From NCBI GenBank assembly GCA_009693865.1, contig SHWL01000002.1, positions 32,905 to 96,904 of the forward strand: a stretch of 64,000 nt of DNA, read 5' to 3'. Positions 4,547-8,948 of this stretch are shown in pieces. Made by a program: the position numbers and the translations under genes. The notes under the pieces were generated by a model, which saw only the letters and a list, made by a program, of their open reading frames with translations, was not told the origin of the DNA and did not search any database. The stretch is from Acetobacteraceae bacterium. GTDB lineage: Bacteria; Pseudomonadota; Alphaproteobacteria; Acetobacterales; Acetobacteraceae. Numbering within the stretch: position 1 is the stretch's first letter; every line of letters begins with the position of its first letter.

Positions 4547-5671
4547 ATGAGCTATCGCCCGTATCAGGACATCCAACGCCGCGCCTCGCGGCGGGTCTAC
4601 GTGGGCAAAGTCCCGGTCGGCGACGGCGCGCCGATCACGGTGCAGACCATGACCAACACCCTGACCACGGATGTCGCGGGTACGGTGGCGCAGATCCAGC
4701 GAGCCGAGGCAGCGGGCGTCGACATCGTCCGCGTCTCCTGCCCGGATCGGCCAAGCGCGTTGGCGTTGAAGGACATCGTGCGGCAGGTGAACGTCCCGAT
4801 CGTCGCCGACATCCACTTCCACTACCGGCGCGCGATTGAGGCCGCCGAAAGTGGCGCCGCCTGCCTGCGCATCAATCCCGGCAATATCGGCAGCGATGAG
4901 CGGGTGCGGGAGGTCGTGAAGGCGGCGCGCGATCACGGCTGCTCCATGCGGATCGGCGTGAACGCGGGCTCGTTGGAAAAGCACTTGCTGGAAAAATACG
5001 GCGAGCCCAACCCGGAAGCTTTGGTCGAAAGCGCGCTGTATCACGCGAATATTTTGCAGCAGCACGATTTTCATGACTTCAAAATCAGCGTGAAGGCCTC
5101 CGACGTATTTCTGGCGGTCGCGGCCTATCAGCAATTGGCCGAGGTCTGCGATCATCCGCTGCATATTGGCATCACCGAAGCCGGCGGCCGCCGCATGGGG
5201 ACCGTCAAATCCGCCATCGGCCTGGGCTCGCTGCTATGGGCGGGCATCGGCGACACGCTACGGGTGTCGCTGTCCGATGAGCCCGAGGAAGAAGTGCGGG
5301 TCGGCTGGGATCTGCTGAAATCGTTGGGTATCCGGCATCGCGGCGTGAAGGTGATCTCCTGCCCATCCTGCGCGCGCCAGGGGTTCAATGTGATCGAAAC
5401 GGTCCGCACGCTGGAAGACCGGCTCGCGCATATTGAAACGCCGCTGACGTTGTCGATCATCGGCTGTGTCGTGAATGGACCTGGCGAGGCGCTGATGACG
5501 GACATTGGCGTGACCGGCGGCGGCAATGGCCGGCACATGATCTACAGCGCCGGCAAGACCGATCATACGATCGCGGGCGCGACGATGGTCGACCACATCG
5601 TCGAACTGGTGGAGGCTAAGGCCGCCGAACTAAAGAGCGCGGCGGACGCGGAGAAGCTGGCGGCTGAGTAG
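4547..5671 (+). CDS. ispG: 4-hydroxy-3-methylbut-2-enyl diphosphate synthase (flavodoxin/ferredoxin)
   Basis: 374 residues, the bacterial length. IspG reductively converts MEcPP to HMBPP, the penultimate step of the MEP isoprenoid pathway, using a [4Fe-4S] cluster. The three cluster cysteines are visible as C272 and C275 ([10 protein letters not shown]) and C307 ([13 protein letters not shown]), and E314, the fourth ligand in this family, follows in the same motif. N-terminal [12 protein letters not shown] and the barrel motif [11 protein letters not shown] are typical. The start ATG has GGGAG at the right distance. The usual alphaproteobacterial neighbour hisS is not downstream; an unrelated AT-richer operon begins 8 bases after the stop. 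Confidence 0.97.
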
Positions 5672-5679
5672 TATGTAAG

Positions 5680-5910
5680 GTGGTAAGGCGGCCCGTCCCA
5701 AAGCCGTCTTATCTGGATCAATGCGATTATCTGGGCTTTGTGCATGGCGACCGCCGGTGGCGGAGCAAAAACGGGAACCGCTTGTTTACATGGGATGAAC
5801 TGCACGGAGAAATCGAGGTTTTCAATGTTCGAGGTAGACACCTTGGTTCATTGGATCCCGCTGGAAGCTTGATCAAGGAAGCCGTGCCAGGGAGATGGGT
5901 CGATGTGTAG
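5680..5910 (+). CDS. stand-alone colicin E3-type ribonuclease (cytotoxic) domain
   Basis: A 76-residue protein from a GTG start. It looks like only the C-terminal cytotoxic domain of colicin E3-family toxins, which cut 16S rRNA at the decoding centre. The core WDELHGEIEVFNVRGRHLG matches the E3 nuclease signature, and the catalytic set is present with family spacing: D39, H42 and E46 (colicin E3 D510, H513, E517), plus R72 in the VPGRW tail (E3 R545). A DPAGSLIK turn sits between. There is no receptor-binding or translocation domain and no signal peptide, so it should act inside its own cell. The stop overlaps the next start by 8 bases (ATGTGTAG), implying translational coupling. Base composition is visibly lower in GC than ispG upstream, suggesting transfer. 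Family call is by motif; activity is inferred. Confidence 0.8.
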   Translation: MVRRPVPKPSYLDQCDYLGFVHGDRRWRSKNGNRLFTWDELHGEIEVFNVRGRHLGSLDPAGSLIKEAVPGRWVDV

Positions 5911-6256
5911 CGCGTTAGTCGAACCAAGGCCACCGACGTTCTTCGACCTCTACAGTCACGGCCTGGCCCTGCCGGACGAGATCGATGATTTCATTGACCG
6001 TTGGCATGAGGACGCGTCTTCGCGTGCCAGCAGCCTGCCACTGCACGAATTTCTTGGGTTGACACGCGACGAATATGAAATTTGGGTGTTGGACCCGGAT
6101 GTACTGCCCCATGTTCTGATCGCACGCCGTGAGGCGCGACCACTCCCGGAGGTTATGAGCCAGTACCTGGATGCGTTCCCCCTGGCCGCTCGTGCGTCGG
6201 ATATCGCGACAATTAAGGCGCTTAGAAGCTGGTTGGCAAAGCGGCTGCTACCGTGA
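5903..6256 (+). CDS. small acidic protein, candidate antitoxin/immunity partner
   Basis: 117 residues, start overlapping the E3-like gene. I recognise no catalytic fold. It is acidic in its first half (ALPDEIDDFIDRWHED) and carries LPLHEFLGLTRDEYEIWVLD, a motif seen in short uncharacterised proteins next to toxin or ImmA/IrrE genes, then a basic helical tail ending WLAKRLLP. Position directly after a ribonuclease domain with overlapping start, and its acidity, make it the natural candidate for neutralising the toxin. It is longer than, and not obviously similar to, the classic E3 immunity protein (about 85 residues). Its stop overlaps the GTG of the metallopeptidase gene by four bases. Confidence 0.7.
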   Translation: MCSALVEPRPPTFFDLYSHGLALPDEIDDFIDRWHEDASSRASSLPLHEFLGLTRDEYEIWVLDPDVLPHVLIARREARPLPEVMSQYLDAFPLAARASDIATIKALRSWLAKRLLP

Positions 6257-7239
6257 ACGCCGCTTCGTTCGAGGTTAATCTCGCGCGAAGAGTCATTGAG
6301 CGTTTCAACTTGTCACCTCCCGTCGACGTCGAATCGGTTGCATACCGTTACGCGATGGTTGAGCACTGTCCGATTCCGCTTCAGGTTGACGGTATCTGCC
6401 TTAATTTGAAACGCCCAGGCATTCGGCCAACTATTATCGTCAACCTGGATCGACCTTTGCGACGTAGGCGATTCACCCTCGCACACGAGCTGGGCCATGT
6501 ATTGATCCCATGGCATCGGGGCAGTTTGTATGATGACTTTTCTTTGTCCGACCGAGAACGTACGTTTGATCGATGGGAAATGGAAGGTGAGGCAAATCGG
6601 TTCGCATCCGAATTGCTGATGCCATCTGATTGGATATCCGAGGTCCAGACGCTGGCCAATAATTTCGGGAGGGCAGTGTCCTGGGTTCAGGAACAGGCCG
6701 AAGTTTCAATGATCGCAAGTGCCATCCGTCTAATAGGGATTGCATCGGCGAACCACATTTTCGCCCATTGCGATGATACCGGATTCGTCCTGAATTCCGG
6801 GCGTTCACCTGGCACGTTGGCAAACGCACCCGCGTGGAACGAGGACCTTGATCGCTCATATTTGGACGGCAATGCCGCTGACAGAGGCGAGATTCTCGCG
6901 GGTGGCACATGCCTGTATTGGTGGAGATTCCCTGATGAAGTCGCGTTGGCCGAGCCAAACGATCCTCGGGATTGGCGATCGATTTTACAAGAGATCATTG
7001 ATGATCTGGTGGCCTTTGATAACGACAAACCCAGAGTTAGACAATCTATCAACGGAGTGATCGGGGCAACCAACAGCAGCAGGCGAGGTAGTTCTGCTGA
7101 GGAATTGCTCGCGGCCCTGATGCAGCGCTTCGACAGCAAACGCGCTCAGGGAGGTATCTTTCCCGAATTGCCCCGCCATCCGAATTTTCGCGACTTTCTG
7201 ATTCGGCGGGTAAAGACTCTTCGCGGCGTTGGACCATGA
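6253..7239 (+). CDS. ImmA/IrrE family metallo-endopeptidase
   Basis: 328 residues from a GTG that overlaps the previous stop (GTGA). The zinc protease motif H78-E-L-G-H82 lies in RRFTLAHELGHVLIPWH, and the downstream glutamate ligand region is EGEANRFASELLMP, exactly the ImmA/IrrE arrangement. This family cleaves repressors or antitoxins: ImmA in the ICEBs1 element, IrrE in Deinococcus. The C-terminal ~170 residues are family-typical but unassigned. As third cistron after a ribonuclease and a small acidic protein, it could process the acidic protein and so free the toxin (inference). The DNA is distinctly AT-richer than flanking housekeeping genes. There is no classic Xre-type HTH regulator in the operon. 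Confidence 0.88.
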   Translation: MNAASFEVNLARRVIERFNLSPPVDVESVAYRYAMVEHCPIPLQVDGICLNLKRPGIRPTIIVNLDRPLRRRRFTLAHELGHVLIPWHRGSLYDDFSLSDRERTFDRWEMEGEANRFASELLMPSDWISEVQTLANNFGRAVSWVQEQAEVSMIASAIRLIGIASANHIFAHCDDTGFVLNSGRSPGTLANAPAWNEDLDRSYLDGNAADRGEILAGGTCLYWWRFPDEVALAEPNDPRDWRSILQEIIDDLVAFDNDKPRVRQSINGVIGATNSSRRGSSAEELLAALMQRFDSKRAQGGIFPELPRHPNFRDFLIRRVKTLRGVGP

Positions 7240-7458: not shown

Positions 7459-7965
7459 TCAACCGCCGGCCGCATCCTGAAACGCCCGGAGCACGGAATC
7501 GCCGAAGCAGGCGAAGATTACCTCGGTCAACAAGGTATTCCCGGCGAGAAATGTCACTGTCGTATCGATCGCGATCCGCGCCGCCGCCAGGATTGGATAA
7601 CCGTACACCCCGCAACTGATCGCCGGAAAGGCGATCGTACGAATGTCATGCGTCACCGCCAAAGTCAGACTTTCACGATAACAACTTGCCAGTAGTGCCG
7701 GTTCGTTGGCGGCGCCGCCCCGCCATACCGGGCCAACCGTGTGGATCACATATCGCGCCTTCAGGCGGTATCCTTTGGTGATTTTCGCGTAACCGGTGGG
7801 GCAACCGCCCAGGGTGCGGCATTCGGCGAGGAGGTCTGGGCCGGCGGCACGATGGATCGCGCCATCGACACCGCCGCCGCCCAACAACGTTTCGTTCGCC
7901 GCGTTGACGATGGCGTCCACTGCAAGCACCGTGATATCGGCGGCGACGATCCGGATGCGATGCAT
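7459..7965 (-). CDS. macro-domain protein, O-acetyl-ADP-ribose deacetylase type
   Basis: About 168 residues from ATG 7965; a GTG at 7977 overlapping the corA stop is an alternative start. The macro fold signatures are all present: [20 protein letters not shown] for ADP-ribose binding, the IHRAAGP helix, [22 protein letters not shown], and the phosphate loop [10 protein letters not shown]. MacroD/YmdB-type proteins remove ADP-ribose from acidic residues or deacetylate O-acetyl-ADP-ribose in the cytoplasm. It lies directly downstream of corA on the same strand with a stop/start overlap, so co-transcription is likely; no functional link between the two is evident. Confidence 0.92.
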
Positions 7966-7967
7966 GG

Positions 7968-8948
7968 CTACATCCACTTACGCCAGCGGAAGATCGCCAG
8001 CGGGATCAGGCTGGTCAGGATGATCAGAAACCAGGCAGAGGGATAACCCCAGGCCCACTCCAACTCCGGCATTGCCTTGAAATTCATGCCGTAAATGCCC
8101 GCGACAAGCACCGGCGGGATGCCGACCACTGAAGTGATTGTCATGACCTTCATGACATCGTTCTGCGCGATGTTGATGAACCCCAGTGTCGCATCCAGCA
8201 GGAACTGTAGCTTATCCGACAGATGGTTGTCGAAATCGCTGATCGACCCGATATCCCGCCGCAACGTCCGCAGCCGGCTTTTCAATCCGTCGGCCAACCA
8301 ATCCGCCGCGTTGGCCTCGATGAATGGCACAAGACGGGTGGCGCCAAGCTGGCTCTCACGGATGTGGGAGATCAGGTCGCCGATCCGGCCCAGTTGGACG
8401 AGCGTTTCACGGAGGATACGATCTTCCATTTTCCGGCCGGAGCCGCGATCGGCGCCGAGCGCGAACACACGATGGGAAATGTTATCGAGATCGGTTTGGA
8501 TCCGTTCCAGAACGTCGGCCTGGCGATCGACGATGGCCTCCAGCAAACCGATCAGAATATGCGCGGCGCTGTCGCTTCTGGCTTCGCCGCGCGGCATGTG
8601 TGTCACGAAAGTGTCAAAGACGTTGCTGACCGCGAACCTGACCGTCAGCAGCCGGTCCGGAGCCAAAACAAACCCGGCGGAAACGCCGCGCGGGCCATCG
8701 ATCATGCTGACCATGGGCATGCTGAGATACAGCACGCCATCTCGCACCCCGAGCCGGCTGGAGGTCTCGATCTCGCTGACCTCGGCCAGTGTCGGGACAT
8801 CGAGACCCGTCGCCTCGGCCACGAGACTTGCTTCTTCCGGTGTGGGTTCGTGCAAATCGATCCAGACGGCCTGCCGCAGCATCTCGACATCTGTCACGTT
8901 TTCAAGGCGGACCGGGCGGCCTGCCTCACACCCAAACGCCGTCAGCAT
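7968..8948 (-). CDS. corA: CorA family magnesium/cobalt transporter
   Basis: 326 residues. The diagnostic pore motif YGMNF is at about 286-290, at the end of the first C-terminal membrane helix ([19 protein letters not shown]). A second helix ([18 protein letters not shown]) and a basic RKWM tail follow, giving the standard two-TM CorA topology with a large cytoplasmic N-terminal funnel. It passes Mg2+ (or Co2+/Ni2+) passively down the potential. The start ATG at 8948 is preceded by GGGGGAT. The GMN loop is complete and length is normal, so it should be functional. It is separated from ilvC (same strand, upstream) by only 36 bases. Confidence 0.93.

Follow-up and report, generated by a model that had tools for sequence, protein, structure and literature searches.

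Toxins of the PF09000 type are known as delivered weapons, and the immunity protein of colicin E3 is mainly a beta-sheet protein. Proteases of the IrrE type are known as cutters of Xre repressors. According to a review, IrrE cleaves DdrO at the bond joining Leu106 to Arg107, within the alpha7-alpha8 loop (PMC8072749), and work on D. geothermalis reports that Arg118 in the DdrO loop is needed for ssDNA-stimulated cleavage and that CapP is likewise activated by ssDNA (PMC10904395). Among toxin-antitoxin (TA) systems, RosmerTA is presented as an ImmA-domain antitoxin joined to varied toxins (PMC10440598), and Makarova et al. (2009) predicted Xre-COG2856 three-component systems in which the protease cleaves the Xre antitoxin of RelE or PIN toxins (PMC2701414).

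We analysed a window of 64,000 nucleotides (the whole stretch of DNA under study) from an Acetobacteraceae bacterium. It holds three overlapping genes, referred to here as T, M and I, which lie among their neighbours as follows:

4547..5671, plus strand: ispG (GcpE), the upstream neighbour (PF04551, E 3.5e-140)
5680..5910, plus strand: T, a colicin-E3-type cytotoxic RNase domain alone (76 aa, GTG start)
5903..6256, plus strand: M, an acidic protein with an all-helical model, the likely antitoxin (117 aa)
6179..6199, plus strand: codons of M residues 93-99 (P-L-A-A-R-A-S), the loop motif, a candidate cleavage or recognition site for I
6253..7239, plus strand: I, a zinc peptidase of the M78/IrrE/ImmA type (328 aa, GTG start, HELGH)
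7459-7977, minus strand: a macro-domain gene directly after the operon, on the opposite strand (PF01661, 1.1e-47)

In the window ORFs, T and M overlap by 8 bases and M and I by 4 bases; the coordinates given in a first-pass annotation, which had also noted that the genes overlap, were correct when rechecked. The ispG stop codon lies 8 bases before the start of T, and co-transcription of ispG and T is possible.

T matched PF09000 with an E-value of 1.7e-10 and 41.6 bits, where the curated cut-off is 22, and in the Pfam search this domain accounted for the whole of T and nothing else matched. T also matched the colicin E3 chain 1e44, at 3.5e-7 by phmmer and at 3e-12 by profile. Residues D39, H42, E46 and R72 of T align with what we take to be the catalytic set of colicin E3, and the catalytic residues and their spacing are the same as in the cytotoxic domains of colicin E3 and pyocin S6. 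Among 97 unique T sequences, D39, H42, E46, H54 and R72 were kept in 96, 96, 97, 95 and 95, respectively. These results confirmed the colicin-E3-type identity that had been proposed for this basic protein (pI 9.03). Unlike colicin E3 and pyocin S6, T has no receptor-binding domain, and delivery (translocation) domains are absent from its 76 aa in the window. A protein search covering proteins of 0.55-1.75 times the query length returned 62 T-like proteins of 53-96 aa, and T measured 74-79 aa in 72 of the 81 T genes found at 75 loci, with start codons chosen by rule. The idea of a domain-only toxin therefore held for the window and for its relatives, and on the same architecture we rejected T as a delivered bacteriocin or contact-dependent toxin. 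By analogy with colicin E3, T would cleave 16S rRNA at the decoding centre.

E3 domains of another kind were also observed, on a Bosea plasmid (L144), in a viral sequence (L112) and in the window's own genome (L152, contig C24), and no M match was found beside any of the three. The genes that follow the more distant E3 domains of L152 and L144 are alike by eye and may belong to a different immunity family.

M is acidic (pI 4.93) and gave no significant match in Pfam, NCBIfam or PDB. A protein search returned 29 M proteins, and no Pfam family was common to more than 2 of 89 members of the M family, even at E 0.1. Relatives of M include phage families without an assigned function, phrog_14299 among them. 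The proteins fall into two lengths, long (100-128 aa) and short (69-93 aa). The AlphaFold model of M is helical, with helices 81-91 and 99-115 flanking the motif loop, where confidence is low. M thus differs from the E3 immunity protein, both in having no Pfam match and in being all-helical in the model. Neither Pfam nor NCBIfam yielded an HTH family match for M, though a divergent HTH could escape these profiles, and M is in this respect unlike DdrO, ImmR and CapH, which carry a recognisable HTH. DdrO of Deinococcus is an Xre repressor of DNA-repair genes and CapH of CBASS is a transcription factor, whereas M is paired with a toxin and is likely its antitoxin. We infer from this pairing that M neutralises T. 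The family of this likely antitoxin is without earlier description in Pfam or NCBIfam and is present in many phyla.

I matched Peptidase_M78 at 3.5e-13 and carries HELGH at residues 78-82, so that the third gene is an ImmA/IrrE metallopeptidase, as had been read from its sequence. The best folds for I were PprI with ssDNA, IrrE and CapP, and an IrrE-like fold is predicted; profile match, HEXXH signature and predicted fold together place I in the M78/IrrE-ImmA group. Behind the peptidase lies a strand-rich domain that aligns with the GAF-like domain of IrrE, followed by an extra C-terminal helical part that sets I apart from IrrE/PprI. The zinc-site residues H78, E79 and H82 were invariant in 36/36 aligned I proteins, which argues for catalysis. 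No HTH match to I was found in Pfam at E 1. RmrA of RosmerTA is an Xre HTH fused to an ImmA peptidase, and the match of I to RmrA models is confined to the peptidase domain. The operon resembles RosmerTA and the Xre-COG2856 systems in combining a toxin with an ImmA-type protease. It differs from them in that the protease has a gene of its own, the antitoxin candidate is unannotated and gave no Xre match, the toxin is of the E3 type and a motif has been identified.

Several variants of I were seen outside the window. The I gene is split at L043 / L236 / L243, with its two parts about 1.3 kb apart and the M motif kept, as if it had been interrupted by an insertion. Greater length is seen in I proteins of the Bacillota type (427-437 aa in L041, L047, L048 and L080), and in L143 and L157 two stretches of such a protein match overlapping parts of the second half of the profile, a pattern that suggests a duplicated sensor domain.

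We then surveyed gene neighbourhoods at the 75 loci, which came from a single search of genome contigs with an alignment of T. An M-family gene lies directly after T in 75/75 loci (at L063, M is cut by the contig end), and the commonest spacing is the window's own 8-base overlap. The loci span Pseudomonadota, Bacillota, Bacteroidota, Actinomycetota, Cyanobacteriota, Planctomycetota, Chloroflexota, Spirochaetota and others. The survey could have separated the small ORF from its neighbour, and instead T was followed by M throughout. A chance or mis-called ORF is excluded, because T matches PF09000, because 62 T-like and 29 M proteins exist and because T stands directly before M at every locus. 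This constant adjacency, together with an M that has no known family, gives the pattern of a toxin plus an antitoxin; small genes that adjoin or overlap and are conserved as a pair, here at all 75 loci, are a feature of type II TA systems. I was directly downstream in 42/75 loci and absent in 33/75, with broken or partial copies counted as present (L006, L028, L043, L064, L076); therefore, I is not needed for the T-M pair. Of the tripartite operon proposed in the first-pass annotation, the three overlapping genes stand, but the protease is an optional member. These counts concern loci found through T, and the frequency of M or I without T lies outside their scope.

The distribution of M is rare and patchy: it was present in 15/98 genomes of a set of relatives, all 15 in the window's genus, and in 1/398 genomes of the phylum. 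Some M genes of congeners have no T match alongside (L089, L094, L103 and one of L082). In Acetobacteraceae, T-M pairs sit between ispG and hisS at L017 and L035, adjoin ispG in the window and at L059, and adjoin hisS at L013 and L045; tandem T-M arrays of up to three copies, some of them broken, also occur in this family. In Acetobacteraceae, the ispG-hisS junction seems to be a preferred site of insertion for T-M pairs. The window's own genome holds extra T-M copies on contigs C73 and C149, where the M tail is kept and the motif is missing, and one on C186 with a short M.

The C-terminal tail of M carries a motif with the consensus L-A-A-R-A/S. We collected 97 deduplicated T-M pairs from the window, its own genome, genome contigs, congeners, and viral and phage loci. 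The regular expression [AVI]AR[ASTGDP], written after inspection of the data, was found in 47/47 unique pairs with I and in 4/50 without I. The four carriers without an adjacent I are L007, L016, L077 and L049; L016 differs very little from L015, a locus with I, and the tail of L049, although counted, looks unrelated. In the 47 pairs with I, the central A and R are invariant, L, M or I precedes A-A in 45, and the last-helix W is conserved in 44; positions -12 to -3 hold about 0.7-1.3 bits each. Six loci with I that were fetched after the motif had been noted (L109, L111, L119, L120, L143 and L156) all carry it; L120 has no T and a fragment of I, L156 came from the search with I, and L119 and L120 came from the search with M.

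Of the pairs without I, 31 still have a tail, and 27 of these lack the pattern, many of them keeping the last-helix Trp. Because tailed pairs without I mostly lack the pattern, it is the motif that goes with the protease, rather than the mere possession of a tail. However, 24 of the 27 belong to one Acetobacteraceae clade, so that the motif-free tails may stem from few events. Long M had I adjacent in 42/57 loci and short M in 0/17 (Fisher p 2.5e-8, kinship ignored; L063 excluded). As the M tail adjoins the I gene, a single deletion can remove both, which can explain the short-M loci. Such linked deletion leaves the retained tails without the motif unexplained.

The motif and the protease were also compared on a tree built from T plus the M core, with the M tail excluded. 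I changes at least 17 times on this tree and the motif 14 times. In 17 contrasts (non-overlapping paths, rows differing in I), the motif was concordant with I in 13-14 and opposite in 0. Strong support was present for 18/94 inner branches, and contrasts limited to supported branches numbered 5, of which 3-4 were concordant and 0 opposite, with a p of 0.125 at best; the association is phylogenetically under-resolved. From the way in which the motif tracks I across sequences, the idea of a protease trigger for the operon gains support.

We consider it probable, at roughly two chances in three, that this is a three-component TA system in which M silences the E3-type T and I cuts M at the AAR loop, releasing T. 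In the model of M, the motif, a hydrophobic residue plus A-A-R in a loop before the last helix, resembles the site at which IrrE is described to cut DdrO. At rest, M would bind T and cover its active site, and I would stay inactive until a signal arrives. By analogy with the relatives PprI and CapP, that signal may be ssDNA. Activated I would cleave the loop that precedes the last helix of M, M would lose this helix and its hold on T, and the freed T would cleave 16S rRNA. At loci and in arrays without I, T and M would work as a plain two-gene TA system, in which the motif would be free to drift and would be mostly lost, or the whole tail would go.

Other explanations also merit attention. T-M could be a plain two-gene TA throughout, with I in an accessory regulatory role directed mainly at another substrate and with linked deletions behind the association of tail and I. 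The 33 loci without I fit this explanation, as do the short M genes, never seen with I and lacking a tail that is physically linked to the I gene, and the concentration of motif-free tails in one clade. Linked deletion, however, predicts neither an A and an R that are invariant in 47/47 pairs beside drifting preceding residues, nor tails without I that often keep the helix Trp yet lose A-A-R, and we regard this explanation as unlikely. It is less likely still that I forms part of the antitoxin in the manner of RmrA, silencing T-M by binding the M tail without a cut. ImmA-domain proteins are described as antitoxins in the RosmerTA report (PMC10440598), and a conserved tail motif could serve as a docking site, but the invariant zinc site speaks for catalysis, and since T-M pairs exist without I, M alone should suffice. 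The least probable explanation, to which we give very little weight, is that T-M pairs represent free-standing toxin-immunity cassettes from polymorphic or bacteriocin toxins awaiting recombination with delivery modules. Stand-alone toxin cassettes are described for polymorphic toxin systems (PMC3482391), and the tandem arrays in Acetobacteraceae would suit them. Against this stand the uniform, domain-only length of T, the E3 domains of another kind that have no M match alongside, and the flanks of loci with I, where the 25 of 84 Pfam families listed include no delivery module; most of these families have housekeeping functions, and two phage integrases and two Uma2 are among them.

The genes around the loci were also scanned with PADLOC at E 1e-10. 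For each locus we took at most three of the flanking ORFs closest to it (four at L048), picked by a crude greedy rule and not by a gene caller. The input was 114/152 listed ORFs for loci with I, after removal of the near copies L032 and L076, and 94/121 for loci without I. For loci with I, 25 of 36 PADLOC families were listed: mad3 matched three proteins and PDC-S03 two, and single matches went to AbiK/DRT models, PD-Lambda-4_B, mad2, mad8 and AriA. For loci without I, the 25 of 89 families listed had one member each and were nearly all reverse-transcriptase models, plus PD-T4-6. No recurring defence neighbour appeared among the PADLOC families listed for flanks with or without I. A few loci lie near defence-type genes, and there are no clear defence islands. 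In the window, the neighbours are ispG and the macro-domain gene, unlike the setting of CapP-CapH in CBASS.

M was also found in viruses and phages. A search with M gave 22 viral loci, and in 17 of them neither T nor I was present in the fetched flanks, which extended to at most 4 kb. Among 50,697 phage records, 116 matched M at E 1e-3, 3 of them over 80% of the M length; of four phage records inspected, L141 and L142 have M alone, and L140 and L143 have an E3 domain beside M. The search with I yielded at least 365 confirmed viral loci, of which 80 were kept; in the four of these whose I matches the profile beyond position 230 (L154-L157), I is always preceded by T and M. L122-L126, L128-L139, L141 and L142 carry an M domain without the AAR tail and no T or I match in the fetched flanks. 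As a speculation, lone phage or viral M might act as a decoy antitoxin. At L140, positions 1005-2358 correspond to genes 52 and 51 of Gordonia phage Phabuloso. The gene there that is annotated as a HicA-like toxin has a C-terminal match to the T profile (1.2e-15). Gene 51 carries a HicB-like annotation and starts with an M domain, and a separate metalloprotease gene comes next.

For the role of the operon in the cell, we put forward only tentatively, at somewhat less than even odds, an IrrE-type sensor protease with a built-in suicide effector: a stress or phage signal (e.g. ssDNA) would lead I to cut the antitoxin, T would strike the cell's own ribosomes, and lone phage M may be a decoy.

A description of such an operon was not found in the titles and abstract openings of the open-access literature, a scope that leaves subscription papers and preprints outside. 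What distinguishes the operon, as a probable protease-coupled TA system, is its undescribed antitoxin family, its E3 toxin and its candidate cleavage motif. IrrE/ImmA proteases have so far been known as regulators that destroy repressors. If the substrate here is the antitoxin of a ribosome-inactivating nuclease, sensing of the DNA-damage type would be tied directly to translation arrest. A circuit of this sort was predicted for Xre-COG2856 loci in 2009, and here the AAR loop gives it a testable prediction at the level of residues. If this is true, E3 domains, known as delivered weapons, would also serve as switches inside the cell.
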